From positions 1-52,403 of the forward strand of contig OMYT01000023.1 of the NCBI GenBank assembly GCA_900315315.1: DNA of 52,403 nt, written 5' to 3'. Position 1 is the first letter of the stretch, and every line of letters starts with the position of its first letter. This document shows, piece by piece, positions 11,201-25,844 of the stretch. The notes beneath the pieces were generated by a model. It had not been told where the DNA came from and did not search any database. It saw nothing but the letters and a program-made list of their open reading frames with translations. This stretch comes from an uncultured Eubacteriales bacterium (GTDB taxonomy: Bacteria > Bacillota > Clostridia > Christensenellales > Aristaeellaceae). The position numbers and the translations under genes are program-made.

Positions 11201-11457
11201 CGGATCAATCCGGCATAGCTGCCGATCCAGATGAAGCCGTCGCTTGTCTCGACGATTGCGTTGGCCTCGGATGTGGGCAATCCGCTGGTATTGTCATACA
11301 GCACCGCGGAACAATTATCGAAGTGATCGACAGGATCCACGATCTTCAGCCCTTGTGAATCTCCGTCAGCACTCGCCGCGCATGCATTCAACAGCATGAC
11401 AAGCGCCAGGAGCAGACCGGGGAGCCATCTTCTTCTGTGTTGCGCTCTTTTAACCAC
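8281..11457 (-). CDS. propeller-sensor SpoIIE-type phosphatase (lipoprotein-like signal)
   Basis: 1058-aa sensor phosphatase. The signal region ends in a lipobox-like LNAC; then come many two-component-regulator-propeller repeats (GFIWIGSYAGLIRYDG, RLWIGTNDNG and others, about 50-680), a Y_Y_Y domain (about 690-765), one membrane helix (about 772-795), a basic/acidic coiled linker and a PP2C/SpoIIE domain (about 825-1058). Metal motifs are intact: GGDFYDYF, LIADVSGKG, LLYTDGV and QFDDIT. Known relatives dephosphorylate STAS anti-anti-sigma factors; here ligand binding outside would set phosphatase activity inside. Translation starts at GTG after GGAGGT. It is the last intact gene of the DUF308-permease-ATPase unit. 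No STAS protein is present. Confidence 0.85.
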   Translation of the reverse strand: MVKRAQHRRRWLPGLLLALVMLLNACAASADGDSQGLKIVDPVDHFDNCSAVLYDNTSGLPTSEANAIVETSDGFIWIGSYAGLIRYDGNTFERLSSTTGLTSVVSLYVDSRERLWIGTNDNGVAVMEHGEFRRWGKLEGMKSAHTRAITGDQNGNIYVATTSGIMIIDQQYNLTAMEEADIADAYMRSLVTGPDGKIYGTTDSGDLITIQDGKLTSFIRSEDSSTQGAGYILPDPEAPGKVYVESSEFVLLHANMGESLSDIEKIHIEPLRYIQQMKYIDGKIWICAGNGIGVLDGDRFTVLRELPIDNSVGNVMTDYLGNLWFTSSRQGVMKVVPNQFLNVCERYSLPQMVVNSTCMYKGNLFVATDTGLLVLGNDGPIPRLRLKKAVTASGTDVEADDLIALLDGCRIRSIIRDSRDQLWISTWRTCGLLRYANGELTVFTEEDGLLSNSIRAVSECADGRMLVALTGGVNVIEGDRVVAAYSKEDGIDDIESLTVAEGVNGEIVLGSNGGGIYILSESGTKNINVENGLPSDIVMRVKRDRSRDLIWIVTSSAIAYMTPDYQVTTIREFPYSNNFDLFENSKGDMWVLSSNGIYITPAEELIANGEITPVYYSIANGLCCITTANSYSELTDLGDLYIAGTTGICKVNIEKPLENVDDLKATVPSVQVDEQTIYPNDDGVFTIPSSTQKLTVPGFVFNYALSDPQVSYQLEGFERIDTTINRSDMAPVSYTNLRGGTYHFVMRLKDAMGRGNKEVAVTIVKEKTFYEQVWFYILVAVATALLIALLVKLYIRRRMRALEAKHREEVEREKAEKELQMATRIQLDALPTTAPDFSDFPDLNLRGSMNTAKEVGGDFYDYFPIDENRLCFLIADVSGKGIPAALFMMTAKTMIKDYALNLDTTSKIYTAVNARLCESNEANMFATSWIGIVDKRTMTLQYTNAGHNYPVLQHKGQPCEMIKKNHGLFLGGMEFMRYRQDEIQLEPGDRLLLYTDGVVEAHNRDNVLYGDDRLMSMVDSTRDLPGEQVLERIFADVNEHAAEVPQFDDITMVVLSIQ

Positions 11458-11535: not shown

Positions 11536-12633
11536 TCAAAGCGTAATATTGATCTGATTCCTGTTATCCGTGTAGTTGTATTCCAGCTGTTTCGACATAT
11601 TCTTCAGAATGGTCACTCCAAGGCCGTCTTCCTCCTGCTCGAAGGGATTGAAGGCCATACCGCCGCAGTCGATGTCGATTTGCGTCGCCCCGTCCGACTC
11701 CGCATGGGAAACCGACAGCTTCAGGTCGATATCCTCCCGGCCTGCATAGCAATGATCCAGCAATTCACAGATCAGCTCCTCGCAGCAGAGCTGCAGTCTG
11801 TAGGTGCGCTTCTGGTCCAGGCCGTACTTTTCGCCGAAGTTCTGGATGCCGCCCTGAAGCTGCATCAGGTCGAACTGGCGCTCGGTGATTTCATAGGTGA
11901 AGTACTTGATCTTGTGGATGAAGGCCACGGTCTTGTCCCGCTGCGGATGATCAAATATTTCCGCAGGCGTACCCTGCTCGTAGATCCCGCCGTCCGCGAA
12001 GAACAGCACCCGGTTGGCCACCTCCCGGGCAAAGTTCATTTCATGGGTAACAATCAGCATCGTCATATCCCGTTTTGCCAGCATCCGGATCACAGCCAGC
12101 ACCTCGCCCACCATCGTGGGATCAAGGGCGCTGGTGGGTTCGTCAAACAGCAGCACCTTCGGCTCCATCATCAGGCACCGGCAGATGGCGATGCGCTGCT
12201 GCTGACCGCCGGAGAGCACCGTGGGCCAGGCATGGGCACGGGTGGCAAGGCCGACCTGGGAAAGAAGCTCCATGGCCTTCTTCTCCGCGTCCGGCCGCGG
12301 CATTTTCAGGATCCGCGTCGGCGCGAGGCACAGGTTGTCCATCACATTCATTTCGGAAAACAGGTGGAATTTCTGGAACACCATACCCATGCTGCGGCGG
12401 ATTTCGTCAACCTGATTCCCTTTGGCAGCGGTAATATCCCGGCCGTCGATGATGATTTGTCCCGCGTCCGGCTTTTCCAGCAGCGCCAGGGAACGCAGAA
12501 AGACGCTCTTGCCGCAGCCGGAGCCGCCGATAATGGCGATGCGTTCGCCCTGCACCACAGACAGGTCCACGCCCTTCAAGACCTCCAGCGAGCCGAAGGA
12601 TTTCTTCAGTCCTTTCACTTCAACCAGGTTCAT
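11536..12633 (-). CDS. ABC ATPase fused to an RsbW-like GHKL ATPase domain
   Basis: 365 aa. Residues 1-240 are a polar amino acid transporter ATPase (GlnQ type): Walker A GGSGCGKS, signature LSGGQQQR, Walker B VLLFDEPTSALD, switch His in IVTHEM. Residues 245-365 resemble an anti-sigma/serine-kinase HATPase of the RsbW/SpoIIAB kind: EELICELLDHCY (N box), IDCGGMAFNPF (G1), DGLGVTILKNM (G2). The Asn that normally binds Mg in the N box is replaced by Glu, so kinase activity is doubtful while binding of a STAS partner remains possible. The ATG overlaps the permease stop by 4 bases, showing translational coupling. No substrate-binding protein is encoded nearby. The fusion is clear in sequence; that transport is controlled by partner switching is inference. 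Confidence 0.85.
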   Translation of the reverse strand: MNLVEVKGLKKSFGSLEVLKGVDLSVVQGERIAIIGGSGCGKSVFLRSLALLEKPDAGQIIIDGRDITAAKGNQVDEIRRSMGMVFQKFHLFSEMNVMDNLCLAPTRILKMPRPDAEKKAMELLSQVGLATRAHAWPTVLSGGQQQRIAICRCLMMEPKVLLFDEPTSALDPTMVGEVLAVIRMLAKRDMTMLIVTHEMNFAREVANRVLFFADGGIYEQGTPAEIFDHPQRDKTVAFIHKIKYFTYEITERQFDLMQLQGGIQNFGEKYGLDQKRTYRLQLCCEELICELLDHCYAGREDIDLKLSVSHAESDGATQIDIDCGGMAFNPFEQEEDGLGVTILKNMSKQLEYNYTDNRNQINITL

Positions 12634-13395: not shown

Positions 13396-13911
13396 TCAGT
13401 CATCCACTTCTCTTCCGATAACTATCACGTTGATGCCGGCTTCAATGAAGTAGATGCCGATCAGGATGCCCAGAGCAACTGCCATCATCGCGGGATGCAC
13501 AAAGGAGTAGATACCGATAATCAGCTCCAGCACGCCCAGCACAACGCAGAGCACCACGGTGCTGGTATCGGCGTCTTCCTTCTTGCTTTGAATAGCGGTT
13601 ACAATGGACAGGATCCCGTGAACGATGAACCAGCCTGCGGCGAGATAAAGCAGTATGTAGTCATTGGTCATAGCCGCCGCGTTGGGCACAACCAGACCGA
13701 CAATACCCAGAATCAGGCTGAGGATCGCGAAGAAAAACTCCACGCCGTAGCGCTTTTCTCTGATTCCGCGGACGAGGCCGTAAATACCCCACAGGAAAAA
13801 CAGGATGATGATGAAATAACCCGCGCTCATAAAGGTCATGAGCGGCGTGGCCATCAGGGCGACGCCTGCGATAATCAGCAGGACTCCGAAGATCACGATC
13901 AGGGCAGTCAT
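13396..13911 (-). CDS. DUF308/HdeD-family membrane protein
   Basis: 171 aa with about six hydrophobic segments arranged as paired helices, the pattern of the DUF308 (HdeD) family, whose biochemical role is not settled (acid-stress link in enteric bacteria). It ends in IVIGREVDD. I chose ATG 13911 because GGGAGGA stands 6 bases before it; longer in-frame starts lack such a site. It is the first gene behind element copy A and heads the unit containing the permease, fused ATPase and propeller phosphatase. Confidence 0.8.
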   Translation of the reverse strand: MTALIVIFGVLLIIAGVALMATPLMTFMSAGYFIIILFFLWGIYGLVRGIREKRYGVEFFFAILSLILGIVGLVVPNAAAMTNDYILLYLAAGWFIVHGILSIVTAIQSKKEDADTSTVVLCVVLGVLELIIGIYSFVHPAMMAVALGILIGIYFIEAGINVIVIGREVDD

Positions 13912-13973
13912 TTGGATTCCTCCCATAAAATGATTTATTGTACAGCACATAAAATGCCTGTTACAGGATAGTT

Positions 13974-14023
13974 ATTATCCATTCTTTTAACGTTGCCGTC
14001 AAGAGGGTGTTCCAGAATGTCAA
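13974..14023 (-). promoter_or_regulatory. promoter with shared element, copy A (DUF308 unit)
   Basis: Minus strand: TTGACATTCTGGAACA then CCCTCTTGACG, in which TTGACG (13997-14002) serves as -35; 17-bp spacer; -10 GATAAT (13974-13979). The start codon is about 60 bases downstream. The 27-bp block is shared with three other promoters at 21126-21175, 21184-21234 and 22467-22516. Confidence 0.75.
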
Positions 14024-14028
14024 CATTT

Positions 14029-15357
14029 TTATGCGGCGTCATCCATCTGGACATCCTCGCCGCCATAGGTTTCAACCAGCGTATCATAGGCGTCGATGGC
14101 GTTCTGGATGCGCGCCAGCACGTCGTCCATGCGGTAATACCCGTCTGCGTTCCGTTCCAGGCCGGAAAGATCAATGTCAAAGGACATGGGAGGATTGTCC
14201 AGTGAAAGCGGGATGATCCCGCGGAGCTGTTCGGTGCTCTGGTAAACCAGGCGCACTTTGGCGTAAGATTCGCCGTCCTCTGAAGACCATCTTTCAAATA
14301 CGAGCTTCACGCCGATGGGCGTCATGGGCTCCACGGTATCGGGCAGTGTGTATTCCTCCGTTCCCAGTACGGACAGTATGCCGGCGACATTGGAATCATG
14401 TCCGCACAGGAAAGTGAACTTCCGGCCCTCCGCCGTCAGTTCGGAGCGAATCTCCTGAAGCAGCGGGTGCGCCGCGTTCACGGCAATCAGCGGCGTTTCA
14501 AACAGCATTTTGGTATAGGTGTCCACGATGCTGTGGATCTTCCGCCAGTCGTCCCTTGTCAGATCGTGGCCGAAGGCGGCTGCTTTCTCGTCAGCCATCT
14601 CGTAAAACTGGAACGTGAGGGCGTCCGCCACCGATGTCGCAGTTTTGATGGGACCGGTCATACCCGGCTCCTTGCCGACTTCCAGGTTAATGGTTGTTTC
14701 ATCCGCCAGCAGATCGCCGAACTGGCCTGACTGATACGCCTTGCTCTCTTCCATGTCCGTCACATCCATCAGCAGCTTAATGGCGTCCAGCAGTCCGGCA
14801 TGAATTCCTTTCAGCCCGGCCACACCGCCCGCTTCGGCAATCTGGGCAACAACGTCCTTCGCGTATTGATCGTTGTAGAACGTCAGCATGGGATTGAATG
14901 TCGGATCCATTGTGTCGTATTCCGCATGGCTCTCGATCGGCACGACCGCCACCGGCAGGAGTCCTGCGGAGAAGTAGCGGGCCGTAGCCAGTGTGCGCTG
15001 CTTCGCGTTTGCGTAGAACCGCACTGCGCCATCCTCGGGCTTCCAGTTCTCGGGGAACAGGCCCTCCTTCTCCAGCCACAGCCGGAAATACTGCCCCATC
15101 AGGGTCTCCAGCATCGCGCCGCGCAGCGAAAGCTCGCTGGGATTGCTCGTCCATTCAAACCATTGATGCGGTGTGATATCACCCAGCAGCGAACCGCTGC
15201 CCGACAGCGGAGACCGTATGTTGTGGCGGCTCAGGACAACAACCTGTTCAAGCTTATACTTCGCTTCCTGTTCAGCCGTCGCGGGCACGGCAAGCAGTGC
15301 CAGCATCATCACCGCAAGGGTGATAGCAGTCAGATGTTTCCAAAGTTTCTTTTTCAT
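14029..15357 (-). CDS. secreted histidine acid phosphatase (phytase/glucose-1-phosphatase type)
   Basis: 442 aa with a cleavable signal peptide (MKKKLWKHLTAITLA..., cut near ATA/EQ). The branch-2 histidine phosphatase signature appears as SRHNIRSP (about residue 44; usually RHGxRxP, here Gly to Asn), and the HD proton-donor motif as CGHDSN (about 320). The family hydrolyses phosphomonoesters such as phytate or sugar phosphates outside the cell. The gene follows a HAD hydrolase by 19 bases on the same strand and faces, across one promoter region, a secreted 5'-nucleotidase. Together they suggest phosphate or nucleotide scavenging. The preferred substrate is unknown. Confidence 0.82.
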   Translation of the reverse strand: MKKKLWKHLTAITLAVMMLALLAVPATAEQEAKYKLEQVVVLSRHNIRSPLSGSGSLLGDITPHQWFEWTSNPSELSLRGAMLETLMGQYFRLWLEKEGLFPENWKPEDGAVRFYANAKQRTLATARYFSAGLLPVAVVPIESHAEYDTMDPTFNPMLTFYNDQYAKDVVAQIAEAGGVAGLKGIHAGLLDAIKLLMDVTDMEESKAYQSGQFGDLLADETTINLEVGKEPGMTGPIKTATSVADALTFQFYEMADEKAAAFGHDLTRDDWRKIHSIVDTYTKMLFETPLIAVNAAHPLLQEIRSELTAEGRKFTFLCGHDSNVAGILSVLGTEEYTLPDTVEPMTPIGVKLVFERWSSEDGESYAKVRLVYQSTEQLRGIIPLSLDNPPMSFDIDLSGLERNADGYYRMDDVLARIQNAIDAYDTLVETYGGEDVQMDDAA

Positions 15358-15376
15358 GTGAGACCTCCCATATCAT

Positions 15377-16015
15377 TTATTCGTCCTCTTTGAGGTGAAT
15401 ATTCCATCCTGTGTCGATCTTCTTTTTTACCTTTTCCCTGGTGGCATCATCCATTTCCGGCCAGTCAGCAACCGTCGTTGCTTTATTCGAGACCAGATGG
15501 GCCTTTTCCGCGCATAAGGCAAGCGGTGTGTCGGCCAGGGAATCGGAATAGAAGTTTTCGATCACCGGAAAACCCTTGTCAATGATGTACCGGGCCTTTT
15601 CCTTTGCGTACATCATATTGTTCAGGAACACTCCGTATTCGCGGTCATATTCAGATGCCATGAAATTCACGCCTAGCCGCCTTGCGATCGGTTCAATAAT
15701 GCAGGTTGGGGACGCGCTGATAATTAGGTCGTCCGGCCTTTTTTGAGCCAGATACCACGGGACGATCTTTTTTTCATTTTTGTCCCAGTACCGCCTGATC
15801 TGCACGTCAAAATCGTCAATCAGCGTCAGGTATCTGAAAAATTTGCGCTGCAGCGAAGCCTCTGTCATTTTCCCTGTCTTGCGCCGGATCAGATAGCTGA
15901 GTGCCTTCGGAAAAAACGTGATCCATAACTTGGGATGATGGTTCATACACCAGATGCAGAAACCGATCGAACAGTCCGATGGGTAAATCGTTCCGTCAAA
16001 ATCATAAACATTCAT
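15377..16015 (-). CDS. HAD-superfamily hydrolase (class IB-like)
   Basis: About 212 aa. The catalytic motif NVYDFDGTIYPSD starts at the N terminus (nucleophile and general acid Asp), motif II is LIISASP and motif III is FYSDSLADTPLA, the arrangement of phosphoserine-phosphatase-like HAD enzymes. A helical cap with many aromatic and basic residues lies between motifs I and II. It is cytoplasmic with no signal peptide. ATG 16015 lies 7 bases after GAGGA; ATG 16021 is too close to it. The gene is cotranscribed with the secreted acid phosphatase. The substrate is unknown; a phospholipid-head-group or small phosphomonoester is possible. Confidence 0.75.
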   Translation of the reverse strand: MNVYDFDGTIYPSDCSIGFCIWCMNHHPKLWITFFPKALSYLIRRKTGKMTEASLQRKFFRYLTLIDDFDVQIRRYWDKNEKKIVPWYLAQKRPDDLIISASPTCIIEPIARRLGVNFMASEYDREYGVFLNNMMYAKEKARYIIDKGFPVIENFYSDSLADTPLALCAEKAHLVSNKATTVADWPEMDDATREKVKKKIDTGWNIHLKEDE

Positions 16016-16056
16016 TTTCATTCCTCGTATTCAGCTTTTATGAATACTCCTTTTCT

Positions 16057-16084
16057 ATTATAAAGGAAATGAAGAAAAAAACAA
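16057..16084 (-). promoter_or_regulatory. promoter of the HAD/acid phosphatase operon
   Basis: Minus strand: TTGTTT (16079-16084), 16-bp spacer, perfect TATAAT (16057-16062). The start codon is about 45 bases downstream. Confidence 0.6.
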
Positions 16085-16089
16085 TTGTA

Positions 16090-16106
16090 TGTGACGAAAT
16101 GTCACA
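16090..16106. promoter_or_regulatory. palindromic operator candidate between divergent phosphatase genes
   Basis: TGTGAC-GAAAT-GTCACA, a perfect 6-bp inverted repeat with a 5-base centre, lies 5 bases upstream of the -35 box of the leftward operon and about 100 bases before the rightward nucleotidase. The half-sites resemble Crp/Fnr-family sites, but the spacing (TGTGA-7-TCACA) is one base longer than a classical CRP site. Confidence 0.45.
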
Positions 16107-16208
16107 CGAATCCTTATCCAATATATGATATTCTCGGAGGCAGGGCTTTTTTCGTCTTTGGCGAATATTCAGATATATTGCACAGAGCCTGGAATGGAGG
16201 AACACAGA

Positions 16209-17909
16209 ATGAAAAAACGGGTTTCCCTCATCATCACCGTAATGCTGCTTCTGTCAGTCATGACCGCTGCCCTTGCGTCTTCGGCGGAAGAATCCGCGGC
16301 GGAAACTGTTTCAGTATTTCCGGCCGGATCCCCTGATGAGGTGGCGGCTGTGATTCTCCACACCAACGATGTTCACGCGGGATATGCGGACAATATCGGT
16401 TATGACGGGCTTGTTCTGTATAAAAAGGAACTGGAAGCGTTTTATGATCACGTCCTTCTCGTGGATGCCGGCGACGCCGTGCAGGGAACCGTCATCGCTT
16501 CCCTTTCCAATGGCACGGAGATCATCAGGATGATGAACCGGGCGGGATATGACCTTGCGGCTCCCGGAAACCATGAATTTGATTTCGGCTTTGATGCGCT
16601 GGAGGAATGTTCCGAGCTGCTTTCCTGCGGCTATACCTGCGCGAATTTCTGCACCGCCGACGGTGAGCCGGTATTCAGCCCCTGGAAGATCCTGGAAGCC
16701 GGTGACCTGAAAATCGGATTTGTCGCAACGGTTACGCCGTATACTTTTACCCAGACCAGTATCCGGAATATCGTGAACGAAGTCGGCGAACCGATGTATG
16801 ACTTCCTTGTGGACAATACCGGGGACAGGCTGTGCGACGCCCTGCAGAAGCGTATCGATGAAGTCCGGGCAAACGGAGCGGATTACGTGATCCTGCTCGC
16901 CCACCTCGGCAGTGATACGAAAACCCCCTCGATCTATTCGAGCAACGCGGTTGTCGGAAAACTGACCGGCCTGGATATGGTGATCGACAGCCATACGCAT
17001 GAAGTGTACAACACCCGGATCCCGGACAAGGAGGGCCGCATGATCCCGGTTGCCCAGGCCGGAGAGAAACTGAAAGTCGTCGGACAGCTGACAATCTACC
17101 GGGACGGCCACATGGAGGAAACCCTTGTCGAGCTGGTTCCGTCCGTTTCCGGCATCCCCTCGGAGCTTGTCCAACGCAAAAAAACGGATCGATATGTCGA
17201 TCCGGAAATGAAAGCGTTCCTGGACGATATTACCGCTTCCTATGAGCCTGTGCTGGAACGAAAGATCGGCTATAATCCGGCTGATCTGGTCGTATGGGAC
17301 GGTGTCCGGGATTATAACCGGGCTGAGGAAAACGGCCTGTGCGACCTGGTCGCGGATTCCCAGCGCGTTCTCGCCGGAGCCCAGGCGGCCATGGTTCATG
17401 CCGGTTCCGTGCGCAACAACCTGAGCGCGGGAGAGATTACCTGTAAGGATGTCCTGAACACGCTTCCTTATTACAATGAAATCGTAAAGGTAAGCGTCAG
17501 CGGGCAGATGATTCTGGACGCCCTGGAATTCAGCGTATCCTTCCTTCCGAAACGAGTCGGCGGTTTCCTCCAGGTTTCGGGCATTTCGTTCAGCGTCAAT
17601 CCGGACCTCGGAAGCAGCGTGCAAACAGATGAGAAAAAGCAGTTCATCTGTGTGGAAGGAGACCGCCGTGTACATGACGTAACAATCGCAGGCAGGGCTC
17701 TTGACCCGAAAGCCGAATATACGCTGGCCATAAACATGTTCCTGCTGACCGGCGGGGATGGATATACGATGTTCAAAGAGGCGGATATTCTGGAAACCAT
17801 GCCCCTTTCCGATAACGAAATGCTCATGAAATACATTGAGGAAAACCTGGGAGGCGTGATTCCGGAAAAATACGGGGAACCGCTGGGACGCATTCAGTGG
17901 ACAACCTGA
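16209..17909 (+). CDS. secreted 5'-nucleotidase / metallophosphatase (UshA family)
   Basis: 566 aa from ATG 16209, which follows TGGAGGA and begins a signal peptide (MKKRVSLIITVMLLLSVMTA). The metallophosphoesterase domain keeps the two-metal motifs ILHTNDVHAG, VDAGDAVQG, APGNHEFDFG, LLAHLG and DSHTHE. The C-terminal 5'-nucleotidase domain (about 340-560) has SVRNNLSAGEIT, LPYYNEIVKVSVSG and INMFLLTGGDGYTMF. It probably dephosphorylates nucleotides outside the membrane. There is no LPXTG or other wall anchor, so the product should be soluble after cleavage. Divergent from the HAD/acid phosphatase operon. Confidence 0.9.
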   Translation: MKKRVSLIITVMLLLSVMTAALASSAEESAAETVSVFPAGSPDEVAAVILHTNDVHAGYADNIGYDGLVLYKKELEAFYDHVLLVDAGDAVQGTVIASLSNGTEIIRMMNRAGYDLAAPGNHEFDFGFDALEECSELLSCGYTCANFCTADGEPVFSPWKILEAGDLKIGFVATVTPYTFTQTSIRNIVNEVGEPMYDFLVDNTGDRLCDALQKRIDEVRANGADYVILLAHLGSDTKTPSIYSSNAVVGKLTGLDMVIDSHTHEVYNTRIPDKEGRMIPVAQAGEKLKVVGQLTIYRDGHMEETLVELVPSVSGIPSELVQRKKTDRYVDPEMKAFLDDITASYEPVLERKIGYNPADLVVWDGVRDYNRAEENGLCDLVADSQRVLAGAQAAMVHAGSVRNNLSAGEITCKDVLNTLPYYNEIVKVSVSGQMILDALEFSVSFLPKRVGGFLQVSGISFSVNPDLGSSVQTDEKKQFICVEGDRRVHDVTIAGRALDPKAEYTLAINMFLLTGGDGYTMFKEADILETMPLSDNEMLMKYIEENLGGVIPEKYGEPLGRIQWTT

Positions 17910-17926
17910 ATGCCTCTGTCCTCTTC

Positions 17927-19378
17927 TCACCCGTTATACTTCAGGCATAGCATCGTGATGTCGTCAAACTGCTGCGCCCCGGCCACAAATGCGTTGATAC
18001 CGTCCATGACGTTTGACAGAACTTCCTCCGGCATGGCGTCCGGATTCCGGTTCAGCGCCTGAAGCATACGGTCTGTGCCGAAAAGTTCGTTTTGGGCATT
18101 CGTGGCTTCGGCAACGCCGTCGGTGTAAACAAACAGGCTGTCACCGGGGTGCAGTTCAAAACTGTGCTCCTTATACGGAATCCCTTCCATCGTGGCAACG
18201 GCAGGGGAGTGGCGATAGACGACGAGTTCGTACTGACCGCCGGCACGGCACAGAACCGGGTGTTCGTGGCCCGCATTGACGGCAGTGCCTTTGCCCGTGG
18301 AGATCTGAATCACCGCCGCCCAGACGGTAACAAACAGTTCTGCCTCGTTGCTCTCGCAGAGCTGGTCGTTCACATTCTCAAGCGCCTCGCCGACACTCTC
18401 ACCGTTCTGGAGATGGGATTTAATGAGCACCCGGGCCACCATCATGAACAGCGCGGCCGGCACGCCCTTGCCCGAAACATCTGCCATGACCAGACCGATG
18501 TGATCGTCATCGATCAGGAAGAAATCGTAGAAATCACCGCCAACCTCTTTTGCGGGCGTCATGCTGGCAAAGACATCAAACTCCGGGCGATTGGGGAATG
18601 CGGGGAAGAGCCGGGGCAGCTGACTGGCCTGTATGTCCGTGGCCATGCTCAGTTCAGCACCCATCCGGGTCGCGGTTTCATGCTCCTGTTCGTATTTCTC
18701 CCTCTGATCCTGCATGATCACCATGGACATATAAACCGCCGCGGCGACCGTAGCCAGGATAATCAACTGGACATCCTGAAAGAACGCCTGAATCGCAATC
18801 GCCGCTATAGGCGCGATAATATACGCCCAGAACGCGTGCCTGATCCGCGGGCTGAAATTGTTCCGCCAGCGGATCAGAAGGAAAACGTCGATGCCCAGCA
18901 TGAAGAGATGCGCCAGATTGGAGAGCATATAGGCAGGAGATCTGTGATAAACATTCCCGCTGTCAAAATAGTAGCAGAGATCGGTAAACTGCGAAACGAT
19001 CATCAGCAGTACGTGCACGATAAGGATTCCCAGGAACAGCCGCAGAAAAGTTTTCCGCTGCCGCTCCGGGTTTGCAACATGCAGCGTAAGCAGTGAAAAG
19101 AGGAAGGCCATCATGCCGGAAGCCAAAAACTCCAGCAGTGTCACAGTGATCAGCGCAATCCGTATCCCCTGACCCGGAATCCCCTCCATCAGCTGACGGG
19201 CAAGGTGGCTGCCGATGTACACAATGACCAGGCCGAAAAAGAGCTGGAAATACCGCGTGGCTTCTTTTGATAATTTGGCTCCCGTGCTGACCTGCAGGAT
19301 GTTCATTCCGCAGATCCCGATTCCTGCCGCGATGATAATAATGTTGAACATGTTTCCGGCTGTTACGCTGAAGATCAT
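17927..19378 (-). CDS. multi-TM SpoIIE-type PP2C phosphatase
   Basis: 483 aa. Residues 1-215 form about six or seven membrane helices; after a short coiled linker (QDQREKYEQEHETATRMG) comes a SpoIIE domain (about 240-483) with intact metal motifs GGDFYDFF, MADVSGKG, FVYTDGV and QFDDIT. The catalytic part closely resembles that of the propeller phosphatase at 8281, so both may act on the same phospho-STAS protein in response to different signals. It lies 34 bases behind the exported phosphoglycerate mutase and probably shares its promoter (element copy B-left). It converges on the nucleotidase with a 17-base gap. Confidence 0.85.
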   Translation of the reverse strand: MIFSVTAGNMFNIIIIAAGIGICGMNILQVSTGAKLSKEATRYFQLFFGLVIVYIGSHLARQLMEGIPGQGIRIALITVTLLEFLASGMMAFLFSLLTLHVANPERQRKTFLRLFLGILIVHVLLMIVSQFTDLCYYFDSGNVYHRSPAYMLSNLAHLFMLGIDVFLLIRWRNNFSPRIRHAFWAYIIAPIAAIAIQAFFQDVQLIILATVAAAVYMSMVIMQDQREKYEQEHETATRMGAELSMATDIQASQLPRLFPAFPNRPEFDVFASMTPAKEVGGDFYDFFLIDDDHIGLVMADVSGKGVPAALFMMVARVLIKSHLQNGESVGEALENVNDQLCESNEAELFVTVWAAVIQISTGKGTAVNAGHEHPVLCRAGGQYELVVYRHSPAVATMEGIPYKEHSFELHPGDSLFVYTDGVAEATNAQNELFGTDRMLQALNRNPDAMPEEVLSNVMDGINAFVAGAQQFDDITMLCLKYNG

Positions 19379-19412
19379 TATGCTTCACCCTTTCATAATG
19401 TTTTTTTTTCAT

Positions 19413-21074
19413 TTATTTCTTTATCAGCAATGACTCTCCCGTCATCTCCGCCGGCTTCTCCATGTCCATCATCTCGATCAGCGTGGGAGCTATGTCAGCC
19501 AGGCAGCCGCCTTCTCTCAGCGTATAGGCGGGATCATAATTAACCAGAATGAAGGGAACGGGATTGGTCGTGTGAGCCGTCCACGGTTCCCCCGTCTCCT
19601 CGTCTGCCATCGTCTCGGCATTGCCGTGGTCGGCGCAGATGAAGAGCTGACCGTTCGCCTCTTCAACTGCCTCCACAATGCGTCCGATGCATTTGTCGAT
19701 GCATTCGACGGCCTCAATGGCGGCTTTCTCTACACCGGTGTGACCGACCATATCCGAGTTGGCGAAGTTTGTAATGATCACGTCATACTCGCCGGAGCGG
19801 ATCTTCTCGATCAGGGTATCGCATACTGCCTCCGCGCTCATCTCCGGCTGCAGGTCATAAGTCGCCACCTTCGGGGACGGGATCATAAACCGGTCCTCTC
19901 CCTCATTAGGCGCTTCCACCCCGCCGTTGAAGAAGAAAGTCACGTGGGCGTATTTCTCCGTCTCGGCGATTCTTGCCTGCTTCATATGGTTGGCGGCAAG
20001 CCACTCGCCGAACGTGTTGGTAAGGACTTCCTTTTCAAACGCGACATCCTTGTTGGGAATTGTCACGTCATAGTCCGTAAAGCATACATAGGTCACCTGC
20101 TTCCGCGGTCCCCTGTCGAAACTGTCAAATTCATCGCAGCAGAAGGTGCGGGTAATCTCTCTGGCGCGGTCCGGGCGGAAATTGAAGAAGATGATGGAGT
20201 CCCCGTCCCCAATGGTGGCCACCGGTGCACCGTCCTCCATCACCACCGTGGGTTGAATAAACTCATCCGTTTCTCCCTTTTGATAGGACTGCGTCACGGC
20301 CTCCGCAGCAGAGGCTGCCGTCACACCCTCGCCCAGGGTCATGGCCCGATATGCCTTTTCAATGCGGTCCCAGTTGTTGTCCCTGTCCATGGCATAATAG
20401 CGGCCTGCCACCGTGGCGATCCTGCCGCAGCCGATCCTGTCCATCTCCTCCTGCAGCGCCTGAACATAATCCTTTCCGGATTCCGGGGGCGTATCCCTCC
20501 CGTCCAGGAAACAATGTACGTATACCTTTTCAAGTCCGTGGCGCTTCGCCAGTTCCAGAAGGGCATAGAGGTGGGTGTTGTGGCTGTGTACGCCGCCGTC
20601 GGAAACCAGGCCGTACAGATGCAGGCTCGTTCCCTTTTCCTTCGCGTTGTTCACCGCCTTCAGCAGCGCCTCGTTCTCAAAGAAATCACCGTCTTCGATC
20701 TTCTTCGTGATCCTGGTCAGATCCTGGTACACGATCCGGCCGGCCCCTATGTTCAGATGGCCCACCTCGGAGCTGCCCATCTGTCCCTCCGGAAGGCCAA
20801 CGGCCATGCCGCTGGCATTGCCCTTCACGAAGGGGCACTCCTTCATCAGCCGGTCCAGTACCGGGGTTTCCGCCAGCGCGATGGCATTGTGCTCACGCTG
20901 CTCATTCAGGCCGAATCCGTCAAGGATCAGCAGCACGGTCGGCCTCTTCTTGTTCGCCTTCTCCTCCGCTTGCGCGGAGCATGATCCGGGCAAAACATTG
21001 AAAGCAACTGCGGTAAACAGAAGCGCTGTCAGCAAAAGCCGAAGCAGCGGTCTGAACCGAACTTTGATATTCAT
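19413..21074 (-). CDS. gpmI: phosphoglycerate mutase (cofactor-independent) with signal peptide
   Basis: 553 aa from ATG 21074 (GAGGAGGT, 6 bases before). The mature part is a full-length 2,3-bisphosphoglycerate-independent mutase: LLILDGFGLN, catalytic Ser in GQMGSSEVGH, DGGVHSH, LDGRDTPP, SDMVGHTG and CADHGNAE, so both metal sites and the phosphoserine are present. It is preceded by a classic export signal: basic MNIKVRFRP, a leucine-rich core and an exit near CSAQAEE, about 45 extra residues compared with the cytosolic enzyme. This glycolytic enzyme is normally cytoplasmic; export is predicted from sequence only. It is transcribed from element copy B-left with the multi-TM phosphatase behind it. 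Confidence 0.88.
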   Translation of the reverse strand: MNIKVRFRPLLRLLLTALLFTAVAFNVLPGSCSAQAEEKANKKRPTVLLILDGFGLNEQREHNAIALAETPVLDRLMKECPFVKGNASGMAVGLPEGQMGSSEVGHLNIGAGRIVYQDLTRITKKIEDGDFFENEALLKAVNNAKEKGTSLHLYGLVSDGGVHSHNTHLYALLELAKRHGLEKVYVHCFLDGRDTPPESGKDYVQALQEEMDRIGCGRIATVAGRYYAMDRDNNWDRIEKAYRAMTLGEGVTAASAAEAVTQSYQKGETDEFIQPTVVMEDGAPVATIGDGDSIIFFNFRPDRAREITRTFCCDEFDSFDRGPRKQVTYVCFTDYDVTIPNKDVAFEKEVLTNTFGEWLAANHMKQARIAETEKYAHVTFFFNGGVEAPNEGEDRFMIPSPKVATYDLQPEMSAEAVCDTLIEKIRSGEYDVIITNFANSDMVGHTGVEKAAIEAVECIDKCIGRIVEAVEEANGQLFICADHGNAETMADEETGEPWTAHTTNPVPFILVNYDPAYTLREGGCLADIAPTLIEMMDMEKPAEMTGESLLIKK

Positions 21075-21125
21075 TGAGAAACCTCCTCGATATTCCGTCT
21101 GAAAAAGCACCGTTGCATAACATAT

Positions 21126-21175
21126 ATTATGTGGTTTTTATGTTGCTGTCGTCAAGGGATGTTCCGGAATGTCAA
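21126..21175 (-). promoter_or_regulatory. promoter with shared element, copy B-left (phosphoglycerate mutase)
   Basis: Minus strand: TTGACATTCCGGAACA then TCCCTTGACG, with -35 TTGACG (21150-21155), an 18-bp spacer and -10 CATAAT (21126-21131); ATG about 50 bases on. Its arm pairs with copy B-right through a perfect 15-bp inverted repeat (21161-21175/21184-21198). Confidence 0.72.
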
Positions 21176-21183
21176 CATTCGAT

Positions 21184-21234
21184 TTGACATTCCGGAACAC
21201 CCTCTTGCATTGAGCATGAAAAAAATAATAAAAT
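21184..21234 (+). promoter_or_regulatory. promoter with shared element, copy B-right (phosphotransacetylase)
   Basis: Plus strand: TTGACATTCCGGAACA then CCCTCTTGCAT, with -35 TTGCAT (21205-21210), an 18-bp spacer and -10 TAAAAT (21229-21234). The leader of about 105 bases ends with a GCCGG/CCGGC stem (21318-21335) directly before the ribosome site. Divergent from copy B-left. Confidence 0.72.
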
Positions 21235-21347
21235 GGAATGTAATTTCGGAAACAGCAATGCATCTCGGATGGTTGAAAACGGGAAATTCTGCGGCCCTCG
21301 TTTTCCTTCCTGCCTGTGCCGGTTGCCGCGCCGGCCTGAGGATTCCC

Positions 21348-22457
21348 ATGAAGAAATTTTTAACTCTGCTCCTGGCGCTTCTGATGGTTCTGTGTTTGTC
21401 CGTCCCGGCCTGGGCGGAAGAAAACGCTCCTGCTGAGAGCGCCGTTCCCGCAATGATTAATCCGCTCATTGAACTTCTGAAGACCAACCCCCGCAGGCTC
21501 ATATTCACGGAAGGCACCGATGCCCGCATCCTTGAAGCCGCCGCACGTCTGAAGCAGGACGGTTTCCTTACGCCTGTACTTATCGGCAATGCGGACGAAG
21601 TCAGGGCTGCGGCCGCCAAAGGCGGTTTTGATATCGAGGGGCTGGAGATCCTCGACCCCGCCGCCTATCCCGATATGGACAGGCTGGTGGATGATTTTGT
21701 TGCGCTGCGCAAGGGAAAGGCTACCGCTGAGGAAGCCCGCAAAATGCTCCTCAGTCCCAACTACTTCGGCACCATGCTGGTCAAGGAAGGTCTTGCCGAC
21801 GCCCTGCTCGGCGGTGCAACCTACTCCACCGCCGATACCGTGCGCCCCGCGCTTCAGCTGATCAAAACCCGCGAGGGTGCAAACCTCGTATCCTCCTGCA
21901 TGATCCTCCTCCGCGGAGACGAAAAGCTCGCCATGGGCGACTGTGCCATCAACGTCTCCTACGAGGATAAACTGGACGATCAGGGCAATGTCGTTCTGAG
22001 CGCCGCCCAGCAGGTGGCGGAAGTCGCCGTTGAAACCGCGCGGACTGCCAGACTCTTCGGCATTGACCCGAAAATCGCCATGCTCTCTTTCTCCACCAAC
22101 GGCTCCGCCAAAGGCGCCGGTCCGGAGATGATGCGCGCTGCCGCCGCCATTGTCAAGGAAACCCACCCTGAGCTTGAATGCGACGGTGAGATGCAGTTTG
22201 ACGCCGCGGTGGTTCCCGAAGTCGGCCAGCTCAAGTTCCCCGGCAGCACGGTTGCAGGCTATGCCAACACCTTTATCTTCCCGGAAATCCAGTCCGGCAA
22301 TATCGGTTACAAAATTGCCCAGCGCCTCGGCGGCTTCATGGCCATCGGTCCCATTCTCCAGGGTCTCAACGCCCCCATTAACGACCTCTCCCGCGGCTGC
22401 AACGCAGAGGAGGTCTATCTGATGAGCATCATTACCGCCGCCCAGGGTATCGAATAA
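21348..22457 (+). CDS. pta: phosphate acetyltransferase with signal peptide
   Basis: 369 aa from ATG 21348, after GAGGA. Residues 1-23 are a textbook export signal (MKKFLTLLLALLMVLC, cut after VPAWA). The rest is a complete short-form phosphotransacetylase: FTEGTDARILEAAARL, GGATYSTADTVRP, AMLSFSTNGSAKG, CDGEMQFDAA, NTFIFPEIQSGNIGYK and GLNAPINDLSRGC. The enzyme interconverts acetyl-CoA and acetyl phosphate and is normally cytosolic; CoA is not expected outside the cell, so export is surprising and unproven. It has its own promoter with the shared element and stands back to back with the exported phosphoglycerate mutase. No acetate kinase lies in the window. Confidence 0.88.
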   Translation: MKKFLTLLLALLMVLCLSVPAWAEENAPAESAVPAMINPLIELLKTNPRRLIFTEGTDARILEAAARLKQDGFLTPVLIGNADEVRAAAAKGGFDIEGLEILDPAAYPDMDRLVDDFVALRKGKATAEEARKMLLSPNYFGTMLVKEGLADALLGGATYSTADTVRPALQLIKTREGANLVSSCMILLRGDEKLAMGDCAINVSYEDKLDDQGNVVLSAAQQVAEVAVETARTARLFGIDPKIAMLSFSTNGSAKGAGPEMMRAAAAIVKETHPELECDGEMQFDAAVVPEVGQLKFPGSTVAGYANTFIFPEIQSGNIGYKIAQRLGGFMAIGPILQGLNAPINDLSRGCNAEEVYLMSIITAAQGIE

Positions 22458-22466
22458 AAAATCGGT

Positions 22467-22516
22467 GTGACATTCTGGAAACCCCCTTGCATGAAGCCTT
22501 CGGGATTTGTTAGAAT
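22467..22516 (+). promoter_or_regulatory. promoter with shared element, copy C (acyl-CoA-ligase operon)
   Basis: GTGACATTCTGGAAA then CCCCCTTGCAT, with -35 TTGCAT (22487-22492), an 18-bp spacer and -10 TAGAAT (22511-22516). The ATG is about 60 bases downstream. Copy C is one base shorter than copies A and B-right between GGAA and CTTG, like B-left. Confidence 0.72.
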
Positions 22517-22578: not shown

Positions 22579-25248
22579 ATGAAAGCAGCAGGTAAAGAAG
22601 GATTGACCAAAATCAGACAGCGCATTAAAAGCGGTGAGATTACGGATCAAAAATGCTGGTCCTTTATCAGGGAATTGAATTCCTTCAGCGAGGAGCGCCT
22701 GGACAGCGTAGCGGTCCGCGACGGGTACCGGACATACACCTACCGCCAGATGTTCCGCTATTGGGAGAAATATGCGGAAGCCTTTTCCGGTGTGCATTTG
22801 ACCGGCAGGAATCATTCCCGCGTGGGCCTGATCGGCGTGCAGCAGACGGAGACGATTTTCGCCTTCTACGCCCTGAACATGACCGGGGCCTCCGTCTCCC
22901 TGATCTATCATCTGGATCTGTATGATGATAAGCGCATCCGGACCATGATCGAACGGGAAAAAATCACCGATCTGGTGATTTCCGAAGTATATGCGTTTCC
23001 GAAGGTCATGAAGGGACTCCTGCGGGACCGGGAGCTGCTCGGCCTGCGGAACATCATTGTGCTGGAAAGCCCGATGGGCGGCGAATATGCCCTTCCCCCG
23101 CTGGAGATGGTTCGCAAGCTGAACACGTCAATGTTCCGGGAGCTTGAGGGCGGGCTGGTGATGGAAGACCTGATGAAGGAATATGAAGCGGCTCCCATCG
23201 CCTACGGAAACGAAAAATCCTCTGAAGGATCCATTATCCTGCACACGACGGGGACGGTCAGCGGCATCCATAAGCCGGTGCCCATGTCCGACAAGGCGCT
23301 GAACTCTTTCGTGATCGCCGCCCTGGAAGCAAAGAACACGTATGAGGATTTCAAACACGTGCCGGATCATCTGGTCAGCTTCCTGGCGCTGCCGCTGAGC
23401 TGGGTTTACGCGATGGTGGATATGCTTCACACCGCCTTCGGCCTGGGCATGGAAGTAGTCTGCCTGCCCTTCGGCGCCACCAATCCCCGTTATGCCGATG
23501 CGATCGAGAACTACGGCATCAGCATCCTCTTTACCAGCATGAGCATTCTGGATACCTGGAATAAGATGATGCCGGATATTGACATGTCCAAGGTAAAGGT
23601 CGTGTTCATGGGGGGCGCGTACGTTTCCCCCGAATTCAAGAAGAGCTTCAACGACTATCTGCGGTCCCACGGTTCCGCCGCCCGGATTATCAACGGGTAC
23701 GGAATGTCTGAGCTGGGCGGCGCGTGTATCATCGCCCCCTCGGACCGGGATGATGACGCCATCGGCTTCCCGCTGCCGGGCTTCAAAGTCAAAATCTATT
23801 CGGAAGACGAAAAGAAGTACTACAATATTTCAGACGGGCCGCGTACCGGCGTCCTGTGCCTTTCATCGCCCACGATGAGCAGCGGGCGGTTGGATGACAC
23901 CGTATTCTTTGAACTGGTAAAGATCGACGGGGAAGAGTATTTCAATTCCAACGATTTGGTGCGGGTCAACGAGGACGGAAGTCTGACCTGTATCGGCCGG
24001 TCCAACCAGTTCTTTGTCAACAACGCCGGCATCCGTTTTGACGCGGGCCTGATTGAAACAGCAATGACCGCCCAGCCCGGTATCAATGCCTGCGGCATCG
24101 TGCCGGAGTTCCACAAGATGATCCACGACAACGTTCCCATCCTGTATGTGGAAACCGCCGGCGGGTCGGACGGACTGGGCGTTGTGCGCGACGCCTTGAT
24201 TCAGGTGTTTATCAACGACGGAAAGCTGGCGGACACCAACCTGCCCAGCCAGGTTGTGCTGGTAGAGAAGATCCCGCTGAATGCTGGCGGCAAGGTCGAC
24301 ACGAAGAGACTGGCATCCGGCGGTGTGAACGGGAAACGGTACAACGTCAGCGGCGTCAAGCTGAACGACAAGTTCGTGGATATTATGCTCATACCCGCGC
24401 CGAAGGGCGAAGCCGCTACGGTCGGGGCCGGCGTACCGGAGGAACTGGAGAACGATCCCTACAACATTCTGAGTGAAATCTTCGCCGCCATTCCGGAGAT
24501 CAAAGAGGGCGGCCTCACCCGGATCATCCGCATCCCGGGCATCCGGGACCTGGTCCTGAAACTCACGGATTTTGACATTCAGAATATTCCGGGAAGCATG
24601 GGCAAATTCGTTCCGAAACTGATGAAGATGTCTGTGGATGAGCTGCCCCCTATGCCGAAGATGAACGGGGACAGCAAAAAAGGCGATACGAAGCACTGGA
24701 TGAAGAATTTCCTTTCCATGGTTGAGGAAATGGAAGCCGCCGAGCTCCCAATGCCTGTACCGCTCATGCCTCCCGTACCGGCCCTGCCGCTCATGCCTCC
24801 CGTGCCGTTCATGCCCTGGAGTTTGTCCGGAAAAAAGGCCAGCAAAAAGAACGATGCCGGCGACCGGTGGGATCATCTGAAAACCGGCGTGGAAACACAG
24901 CTTGAGCAGATGCGGGATGTGCAGAAGGTGTCCATGGATGCATACATGGAACAGTGGGACAAGGCCTTCCCCAAATACATGGAGATACAGGAAGCAATCG
25001 CCGCCATCCTGCCCGACGAGGCGCCTCTCCTGCCCGGGATGCTGTCTCCGAGAGCTTTCATGGAACGGATGAACGAATTCCGGAAAACGGCCAACGAAAA
25101 CGCCAGGAAACAGGCTGATGCCTTCCGCGATTTTTGCAAGGAGGGGCAGCAGAAAGCCAGATCCGTGATTTCGGACACGGTGGAAAACATCGAAAACGAC
25201 GTGAAGAAAACCTCTGACGACACAGCGGACAATGCCGACAGCGAATGA
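22579..25248 (+). CDS. acyl-CoA-ligase-like protein with C-terminal phasin-like helical domain
   Basis: 889 aa. Residues 1-590 are an ANL-family adenylating enzyme: the P-loop is altered (HTTGTVSGIHKPV, about 223-235), while YGMSELGG (about 375), CIGRSNQFF (about 472) and the catalytic Lys in NAGGKVDTKRL (about 571) are recognisable. Then follow amphipathic helices (about 605-715), a Pro/Met-rich hinge (PVPLMPPVPALPLMPP, about 726-745) and a charged helical domain (about 755-880). That last domain is paralogous to the whole small protein encoded next: ILPDE...LPGM...SPRAFMERMNEF versus ALPDE...VPGM...SPKEVVEKAKEF. No signal peptide. I infer acyl activation at a surface or granule; the acid substrate is unknown. 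It heads an operon with the small protein and a hydrolase. Confidence 0.82.
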   Translation: MKAAGKEGLTKIRQRIKSGEITDQKCWSFIRELNSFSEERLDSVAVRDGYRTYTYRQMFRYWEKYAEAFSGVHLTGRNHSRVGLIGVQQTETIFAFYALNMTGASVSLIYHLDLYDDKRIRTMIEREKITDLVISEVYAFPKVMKGLLRDRELLGLRNIIVLESPMGGEYALPPLEMVRKLNTSMFRELEGGLVMEDLMKEYEAAPIAYGNEKSSEGSIILHTTGTVSGIHKPVPMSDKALNSFVIAALEAKNTYEDFKHVPDHLVSFLALPLSWVYAMVDMLHTAFGLGMEVVCLPFGATNPRYADAIENYGISILFTSMSILDTWNKMMPDIDMSKVKVVFMGGAYVSPEFKKSFNDYLRSHGSAARIINGYGMSELGGACIIAPSDRDDDAIGFPLPGFKVKIYSEDEKKYYNISDGPRTGVLCLSSPTMSSGRLDDTVFFELVKIDGEEYFNSNDLVRVNEDGSLTCIGRSNQFFVNNAGIRFDAGLIETAMTAQPGINACGIVPEFHKMIHDNVPILYVETAGGSDGLGVVRDALIQVFINDGKLADTNLPSQVVLVEKIPLNAGGKVDTKRLASGGVNGKRYNVSGVKLNDKFVDIMLIPAPKGEAATVGAGVPEELENDPYNILSEIFAAIPEIKEGGLTRIIRIPGIRDLVLKLTDFDIQNIPGSMGKFVPKLMKMSVDELPPMPKMNGDSKKGDTKHWMKNFLSMVEEMEAAELPMPVPLMPPVPALPLMPPVPFMPWSLSGKKASKKNDAGDRWDHLKTGVETQLEQMRDVQKVSMDAYMEQWDKAFPKYMEIQEAIAAILPDEAPLLPGMLSPRAFMERMNEFRKTANENARKQADAFRDFCKEGQQKARSVISDTVENIENDVKKTSDDTADNADSE

Positions 25249-25337
25249 GGGGTAAACGAAGTCTGATTGCCGACGTTGGTGACGGTGCCGGCTTTCAAGC
25301 AATATATCTTATCCGAATTTTGAAAGGAGAACAAAAA

Positions 25338-25808
25338 ATGGGTAACAAGAAGAACAAGGAAAAGAATGCTTTCCCGGCCATGCCCGCCTGGGATTGGGAC
25401 AACGAAGAACAGAAGGCGAAGTGGAAAGAATTCAAAGCCAACGCCGAGAAGCTCTGGGACCAGTACGAGGATATGCAGAAGGCCGCCAAGAAAGCCTGGA
25501 AAGACCAGTGGGAAACCTTCTTTGCCCAGCTGATGGGAATGGAGCAGACCGTTGCTGACGCTCTGCCCGATGAGAAGATCTCTGTGCCCGGAATGCCCGC
25601 CGCCCCCGTGTCTCCGAAAGAAGTCGTGGAAAAGGCGAAGGAATTCCAGGAGAAAGCCAATGCCCAGGTCGTGGAGCAGGCCGACAATGCGTTTGAGCGC
25701 AGGATGCAGCGGCAGCAGCAGGTAAAAGAGATGGTCACGGATGCCGTGGAGACCGTCGAAGCCAACCTGGACGCAGCCAAGGCCGCGGCAGAAGAAAAAG
25801 CGAAGTAA
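25338..25808 (+). CDS. small charged helical protein, phasin-like, paralogue of the ligase C-terminus
   Basis: 156 aa, almost wholly alpha-helical, rich in Lys, Glu, Ala and Trp near the N terminus (WDWDNEEQKAKWKEF), with no signal peptide. Residues 30-145 align with residues about 755-880 of the preceding ligase, including ALPDE, VPGM, SP+E, QAD and a late DAVETVE block. The size and composition recall phasins that coat polymer granules, but there is no specific family match I can assert. ATG 25338 follows AAAGGAG. It lies 89 bases behind the ligase without an intervening terminator, so probably in the same operon. Confidence 0.75.
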   Translation: MGNKKNKEKNAFPAMPAWDWDNEEQKAKWKEFKANAEKLWDQYEDMQKAAKKAWKDQWETFFAQLMGMEQTVADALPDEKISVPGMPAAPVSPKEVVEKAKEFQEKANAQVVEQADNAFERRMQRQQQVKEMVTDAVETVEANLDAAKAAAEEKAK

Positions 25809-25844
25809 TGACAGAAGTCTGATTCTTCATCAGAGGATCGGCAT

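Follow-up and report, generated by a model that had tools for sequence, protein, structure and literature searches.

A palindromic promoter element in an uncultured Eubacteriales genome is probably the operator of a family of XRE-receiver two-component regulators

Four promoters on a 52,403-nucleotide stretch of DNA from an uncultured Eubacteriales bacterium (GenBank assembly GCA_900315315.1, contig OMYT01000023.1; this whole stretch is called the window below) share a block of sequence that runs into their −35 box. Which protein reads this block, and does it switch the promoters on or off? An earlier note on the sequence had taken the block to define a regulon and had proposed as one candidate binder a protein of the window that joins an XRE-type helix-turn-helix (HTH) to a response-regulator receiver (XRE-REC). 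We put at about 0.85 the probability that the block is the operator of a whole family of such XRE-REC two-component regulators. The operator-promoter unit, its linkage to XRE-REC genes, the pairing of these genes with a kinase gene and the covariation of regulator and operator were computed directly; that XRE-REC binds the block directly is, judged from these sequence comparisons, highly probable.

Reading of the four promoters located the block at each of them, with −35 and −10 boxes separated by 17, 18, 18 and 18 bp, as had been described. The block of 26-27 bp announced in the earlier note is present, and it resolves into a 15-bp imperfect palindrome, TTGACA-TTC-YGGAAC, usually followed by 5-6 pyrimidine-rich bases and then by the start of a −35 box. 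Operator 1 (TTGACA-TTC-TGGAAC, 14009-14023, minus strand) stands before promoter 1 (13974-14002, minus; −35 TTGACG at 13997-14002, spacer 17 bp, −10 GATAAT at 13974-13979). Operators 2 and 3 share the sequence TTGACA-TTC-CGGAAC and are divergent, with 23 bp from centre to centre: operator 2 (21161-21175, minus) belongs to promoter 2 (21126-21155, minus; −35 TTGACG at 21150-21155, spacer 18 bp, −10 CATAAT at 21126-21131) and operator 3 (21184-21198, plus) to promoter 3 (21205-21234, plus; −35 TTGCAT at 21205-21210, spacer 18 bp, −10 TAAAAT at 21229-21234). Operator 4 (GTGACA-TTC-TGGAAA, 22467-22481, plus) precedes promoter 4 (22487-22516, plus; −35 TTGCAT at 22487-22492, spacer 18 bp, −10 TAGAAT at 22511-22516) and is a weaker match, its block having three mismatches to the 16-mer (GTGACATTCTGGAAA). 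With up to three mismatches this 16-mer matches five places in the window, a number reached by 1 of 100 shuffles (mean 0.91). The fifth match, at 12365-12380, is intragenic and is taken for chance.

Relatives carry perfect palindromes, namely TTGACA-TTC-TGTCAA, GTTCCA-TTC-TGGAAC, TTTCCA-TTC-TGGAAA, TTGCCA-ATT-TGGCAA, ATTCCA-TTC-TGGAAT and TTTTCA-ATC-TGAAAA, and the window block combines a TTGACA half with a GTTCCR half. A description of the block as direct TTGAC repeats about 21 bp apart was dropped because the relatives show inverted repeats.

Could the block be a dispersed repeat, or a duplicated promoter cassette, without regulatory meaning? With up to one mismatch allowed, the 14-mer TTGACATTCYGGAA has 21 matches in the window's own genome (an assembly of 4.26 Mb in 197 contigs), against 2 for the reversed pattern; read by eye, 11 of the 21 hold one place before promoter-like boxes and the other 10 lack the boxes or the pyrimidine tail. 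A sequence-only model of 57 columns detected 12 sites in this genome at E < 1e-6, of which 11 are its training sites and one (C144:14092) is new. An 18-mer, searched for in 150 family genomes with one mismatch allowed, gave 11 matches in the own genome, 12 in another species of the same genus (G112) and 1 or 2 in each of four others, and its reversed control gave none. In 1.15 Mb of chosen loci there were 162 sites, against 7 in the reversed sequence. The 16-mer also matches 27 stretches in viral contigs, on which no claim is built. The 14-mer, 18-mer and model scans of genomes thus did not find the block widespread at random positions, and its copies recur before the same kinds of genes in the second species of the genus, which supports the idea of a regulon. 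In favour of a repeat, some promoters look duplicated (on contigs C51, C78 and C105 of the own genome, and in the L104 group). However, promoter sequences mostly differ outside the operator, the sites hold one place before the boxes, and the half-sites vary symmetrically between loci. The adjacency to XRE-REC genes (50 of 80 loci) and the polarity scan, both given below, also disfavour this explanation, which we regard as very improbable.

The three block promoters on C51, C78 and C105 (L114, L115:5610 and L111:5500) have a similar leader (GTGTTACAC region), and two of them precede similar exported proteins, as if promoter and gene had been duplicated together.

The XRE-REC protein of the window, the candidate binder (28075-28671, minus, TTG start), has an N-terminal HTH with the recognition helix VNHSTVARWE and a C-terminal receiver. 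Its end is overlapped by the gene of a membrane histidine kinase (26741-28075, minus; PF06580 and HATPase_c). We compared 80 XRE-REC loci, the best 80 of 456 relatives among at least 591 stretches from a scan of named public genomes. Nearly all of them are rumen or gut metagenome-assembled genomes (MAGs), whose taxon names were given by the depositors and seem unreliable in this set; Lachnospiraceae bacterium AD3010, whose title bears no MAG label, is also included. A kinase homologue lies directly downstream of XRE-REC in 72 of the 80 loci, the pairing being judged by adjacency; among the remaining loci, one ends at a contig edge and two have a partial kinase match at the right place. The upstream regions were searched with a matrix built from 12 site strings, 11 from the own genome and one from G112, at a threshold score of 12. 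The block was found at most 260 bp upstream of XRE-REC in 50 of the 80 loci, while the reversed matrix gave 0/80 and the downstream stretch 1/80. Of these 50 blocks, 48 face away from the XRE-REC gene, nearly all of them 60-140 bp before its start; a divergent target promoter next to the regulator gene is thus the most frequent layout. In three cases (C162 and C33 of the own genome, C23 of G112) there is, in addition, a site ahead of the XRE-REC gene that faces the same way as the gene.

The co-occurrence of regulator and operator was analysed with a model of 51 diverse sites at a threshold of E <= 1e-3. Full-length XRE-REC relatives (E < 1e-40) occur in 18 of the 150 family genomes; operators were detected in 7 of these 18 and in 1 of the 132 XRE-REC-negative genomes (Fisher 8e-7). 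When the four genomes whose sites had trained the model were removed (the own genome, G112, G094 and G149), the counts were 3/14 and 1/132 (p 0.003). Among 291 genomes of the class, XRE-REC is present in the own genome, G362 and G390, and the operator in the own genome and G362 only. The G362 operator, the sole match in the 290 other class genomes, is divergent and lies about 100 bp upstream of the XRE-REC gene.

Adjacency would also be seen if the block belonged to some other regulator encoded near XRE-REC, the latter being a neighbour or a target. Usually the gene driven by the site is the divergent neighbour, and sometimes it is the XRE-REC gene itself (L109/L152, L108, L233), as would also be seen for a target. 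However, genomes that lack XRE-REC almost never have the operator, and across families the operator's bases 1 and 15 change with one residue of the XRE recognition helix. We thus consider this explanation improbable.

This covariation was examined in the helix motif V-x1-x2-[SP]-T, where x2 is the second residue after Val, by comparing x2 with the outermost base pair of the operator. Operators were hand-picked for 56 of the 80 loci; the rest have no convincing site, except L224 (Arg, G..T) and L181 (Pro, T..A), which were also omitted. With Arg at x2, all 11 tabulated operators begin with G and end with C; with Asn, Lys or Pro, all 15 begin with T and end with A; with Gln, all three begin with A and end with T. 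The 27 operators of His regulators are more varied, the first base being T in 22, G in 4 and A in 1 and the last base C in 18 and A in 9. Kinship being ignored, G at base 1 separates Arg (11/11) from non-Arg regulators (4/45) with a Fisher value of 9e-9, and C at the last base separates His (18/27) from Asn, Lys, Gln and Pro (0/18) with 4e-6. On a tree built from the receivers only, which excludes the helix, at least 7 Arg changes were counted, and of four supported independent pairs a mean of 3.9 varied with the base in the same way and 0 in the opposite way. A second set, in which operators were found for 14 of 24 XRE-REC genes, gave G..C for 9/9 Arg regulators and T for 5/5 His regulators; three of these 14 regulators are identical to ones of the first set, and the other 11 were added to the tree. 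Two Arg regulators from other families of the class have the perfect palindromes GTTCCA-TTT-TGGAAC and GTGTCA-ATA-TGACAC, the second with no promoter-like tail visible by eye. One residue of the recognition helix appears, from these alignments, to set which version of the block a regulator reads.

The own genome encodes at least four XRE-REC paralogues, so that the copy in the window need not bind every site. Those on C139 and C162 have His in the helix and that on C33 has Arg, the latter being accompanied by GTGACA-AAC-TGTCAC and GTGACA-ATC-CGGAAC. In three of the window operators base 1 is T, which fits the His paralogues C139 and C162. Operator 4 begins with G, like several others in the genome, and the Arg paralogue C33 could be its reader. 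A fourth paralogue (L234:7166-7732, on C122) has a different helix, FITRKTISNWE, and no recognisable operator upstream.

The placing of the operator relative to the promoter was analysed on 137 unique sites from the window and relatives. TTG follows the operator after 6 nucleotides in 85 sites, after 5 in 21 and at other offsets in 8, with no TTG in range in 23, and the gap is rich in C and T. The site scorer rewards TTG and pyrimidines after the operator, which biases their presence, while it gives no score to the exact TTG offset or to the −10 positions. The fixed spacing to the −35 box claimed earlier is thus a usual distance of 5 or 6 nucleotides, not a strict one. For −10-like hexamers, examined at 110 sites, the spacer is 17 bp in 37 cases, 18 bp in 31 and 16 bp in 10, with 7-12 cases at each length from 20 to 23 bp and 1-6 elsewhere. 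The operator would accordingly span about −56 to −42, its centre lying at about −49. Boxes at 17-18 bp with an operator at a near-fixed upstream place, both observed here, are features of a sigma-70 promoter with an upstream activator site. In a G112 group (L104:3706, 8731 and 11299) the best −10-like hexamer lies about 22 bp after the −35 box; the whole set has a low shoulder at 20-23 bp.

The possibility that the block is itself part of an alternative sigma promoter was considered. Site 4 resembles a −24/−12 element (TGG-N10-TTGCA), and GGAAC is found in the −35 boxes of extracytoplasmic function (ECF) sigma factors. Sigma-54 promoters have GG-N10-GC at strict spacing, whereas the GG-to-G distance is 12 or 13 here and two of the four sites have TTGAC, not TTGC, and so lack the GC. 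Housekeeping −10 hexamers at 17-18 bp and the existence of perfect palindromes also argue against this promoter type, which has a very slim chance of being the answer. The sigma-54 and ECF readings of TGG..TTGC and GGAAC were rejected on spacing and on the −10 boxes.

Whether the bound regulator would activate or repress was addressed by a scan blind to the promoter tail. In 101 unique palindromes, the orientation of the centre predicts the promoter side in 58 of 59 clear one-sided cases. A half-site polarity count of 80 to 0 is biased by its matrix and was left unused. Polarity and spacing make activation the preferred mode, and a likely one, as a symmetric repressor site would need neither. 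Alternatively, XRE-REC would bind the block and repress, a dimer upstream of the −35 box blocking RNA polymerase until phosphorylation releases it. Many XRE regulators are repressors, and the quality of the −35 and −10 boxes would allow a degree of unaided activity. In a survey of XRE palindromes, most XRE regulators are said to be autoregulatory (PMC12565409). Against repression, the operator lies upstream of the core promoter and not over it, with a gap of mostly 5-6 nucleotides, and has one polarity that a repressor site would not need. We thus hold repression to be unlikely, and retain activation by XRE-REC as the preferred reading.

Several observations weigh against the assignment of the block to XRE-REC or against activation. 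Upstream of XRE-REC, 30 of the 80 loci score below 12, and 11 of the 18 XRE-REC-positive family genomes have no operator at E <= 1e-3. No block lies upstream of the window's own XRE-REC gene, whose promoter was checked; this was absent from the earlier note, as were the palindromic nature of the block and the paralogues, at least four in number. One genome, G103 (L249), has an operator-promoter unit, GTGCCA-ATC-TGGAAC, and no XRE-REC was detected in its assembly, which is 83% complete. In the comparison of helix and operator, four His regulators have G at base 1, L224 (Arg, outside the table) follows the rule at the first base and departs from it at the last, and the best candidate for L140 (Arg) starts with C; it was judged too poor and was not counted in the second set. 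The tree test has four supported pairs only, giving p 0.125, and cannot reach 0.05; the contrast of His with Asn, Lys, Gln and Pro is unsupported by independent pairs on the tree. As to polarity, 42 of the 101 palindromes lack one-sided promoter-like boxes or have an off-consensus centre, and one case is opposed. Finally, the −35 boxes are fair, so that activation is not forced. Adjacency, co-occurrence and covariation of helix and operator strongly favour XRE-REC, which the earlier note had listed merely as a candidate, as the binder.

The regulator combines features of several known systems. Its HTH is of the Cro/CI type, with PF01381 (HTH_3), PF13560 (HTH_31) and PF12844 above their cut-offs, and its receiver is PF00072, in which D81, D126, T154 and K174 are invariant in 45 sequences. 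A structure model (mean predicted local distance difference test score 86, predicted template modelling score 0.64) shows a helical N-terminal domain of five helices, residues 3-70, and a receiver; the score of 0.64 leaves the relative placing of the two domains uncertain. The rows of a sequence search against solved structures (best 60 of 234) and of a Foldseek fold search (best 50) are receiver or HTH relatives, the fold matches being mostly receivers with PhyR structures among them; no XRE-receiver fusion is described in these best 60 and best 50 matches. None of the best 25 of 37 matches to NCBIfam named regulator families reached its cut-off. Among the literature matches listed, from open-licence PubMed Central, no paper treats XRE-REC regulators or their operator; the closest is the XRE palindrome survey mentioned above, where the terms 'receiver' and 'response regulator' are absent from the main text (PMC12565409).

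With XRE (Cro/CI-type) regulators the family shares the HTH_3/HTH_31 domain, a palindromic putative operator and the presence of this operator in the regulator's own upstream region. It differs in the C-terminal receiver fusion, the histidine kinase partner and the operator's nearly single place and its one polarity with respect to the −35 box at many promoters. Response regulators of the OmpR, NarL and LytTR classes likewise have a receiver with conserved acidic residues, phospho-acceptor Asp, Thr and Lys, and an adjacent kinase gene, whereas the output domain here is XRE and lies N-terminal to the receiver. This reversed order, with an output-like N-terminal and a receiver C-terminal domain, is shared with PhyR-type regulators. 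The N-terminal domain of PhyR is sigma-like and binds an anti-sigma factor, whereas that of XRE-REC is a predicted DNA-binding XRE domain. A Cro/CI-fold dimer beside the −35 box, as predicted here, also recalls lambda CI at PRM, which can contact sigma region 4 from a site centred at −42; here the centre would be at about −49 and the gap is pyrimidine-rich.

We propose the following mechanism. The regulators would be built backwards, an N-terminal Cro/CI-type (XRE) HTH preceding a C-terminal receiver, and would be co-produced with a membrane histidine kinase that sets their state by phosphorylating the receiver. A dimer would sit on the 15-bp palindrome NTNNCA-NTC-YGNNAN, ending 5-6 bp before the −35 box, where it would recruit a sigma-70-type RNA polymerase, and the x2 residue of the recognition helix would set the outermost base pair of the operator. 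The targets would include membrane-bound or exported hydrolases and phosphatases, exported metabolic enzymes, diguanylate cyclases and, often, the genes around the regulator itself.

In the window, operator 1 lies at the promoter of DUF308, transporter, ATPase and propeller-SpoIIE genes (assigned by Pfam). The DUF308 membrane protein (13396-13950, minus; PF03729) is the first of a minus-strand run to 8281, a putative operon judging by gene order. Operator 2 stands at the promoter of a 2,3-bisphosphoglycerate-independent phosphoglycerate mutase (19413-21110, minus) with an N-terminal signal-peptide-like stretch, followed by a SpoIIE phosphatase (17927-19378, minus). Operator 3 precedes a phosphotransacetylase (21348-22457, plus; PF01515) of exported type: its longest open frame starts at 21129, and the likely start at 21348 gives an N-terminus that by eye resembles a signal peptide. 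Both enzymes are normally cytosolic, and a mutase-like protein of G112 (L108:4902-6602) looks similar by eye. Operator 4 lies before an operon of an AMP-binding ligase, a 187-aa protein and an alpha/beta hydrolase (22579-26750, plus). AMP-ligase-like genes with the block also occur in G112 (L103:10118) and at L167:5618.

Other targets in the own genome are an exported histidine-acid-phosphatase-like protein, a carboxylesterase and a second XRE-REC gene, recognised by eye, and a Cache-GGDEF protein recognised with Pfam. In G112 the sites cluster around XRE-REC/kinase pairs, and the targets, some of them assigned by eye, are an AMP-ligase, a histidine phosphatase, a PAP2 phosphatase, an M20 peptidase, an alpha/beta hydrolase, GGDEF proteins and an XRE-REC gene. 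In both genomes the genes for the AMP-ligase, the alpha/beta hydrolase, XRE-REC and the kinase are clustered, in an order that differs between the two. A total of 80 of 91 non-redundant downstream genes were scanned, together with 73 of 91 control genes drawn from the same loci; the 18 controls dropped were mostly XRE-REC or kinase genes, and four kinase-like and four HTH genes were retained. Downstream genes came from a greedy open reading frame caller, so that errors are to be expected in some starts and in a few of the genes. The targets comprise GGDEF (10), Amidohydro_3 (8), carboxylesterase (7), HAD-like (4), DUF1269 (4), AMP-ligase (3), PAP2 (2) and histidine phosphatase (2) proteins; the controls have 2 Amidohydro_3 and 3 carboxylesterase proteins, and GGDEF is missing from the 25 control families listed out of 83. 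By a home-made rule, signal-peptide-like N-termini occur in 25 of 80 targets and 11 of 73 controls (p 0.02), a weak sign that exported-type proteins are somewhat enriched among targets.

Two SpoIIE phosphatases (8281-11457 and 17927-19378, both minus) lie downstream of block promoters, and for this reason the regulon may feed a partner-switching pathway. Adjoining a permease and the propeller-SpoIIE phosphatase, a single open frame (11536-12633, minus) fuses an ABC-transporter ATPase with a histidine-kinase-like ATPase domain. A 64-aa protein starting MKTIEELFNEV follows the block at L012 (C91 of the own genome), and a similar 72-aa protein is found in the G112 cluster (L103:14744-14962); we take both to resemble Nif11-type leader peptides.

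The chances are about even that these regulators form a widespread, undescribed two-component class of gut and rumen bacteria, with an XRE output and a nearly one-residue DNA code. In that case His and Arg paralogues could run separate sub-regulons, and cyclic di-GMP synthesis could be tied to an envelope programme that comprises esterases, amidohydrolases and phosphatases together with exported copies of enzymes that are normally cytosolic, among them phosphoglycerate mutase and phosphotransacetylase. If true, the assignment would give the regulator, the operator, the promoter geometry and part of the DNA code for a little-studied response-regulator class. As the code would be predictive, the sequence of the regulator alone would suffice to call operators and targets in other genomes. 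It would also provide a handle on the joint role of exported glycolytic-type enzymes and cyclic di-GMP signalling in poorly cultured rumen bacteria.

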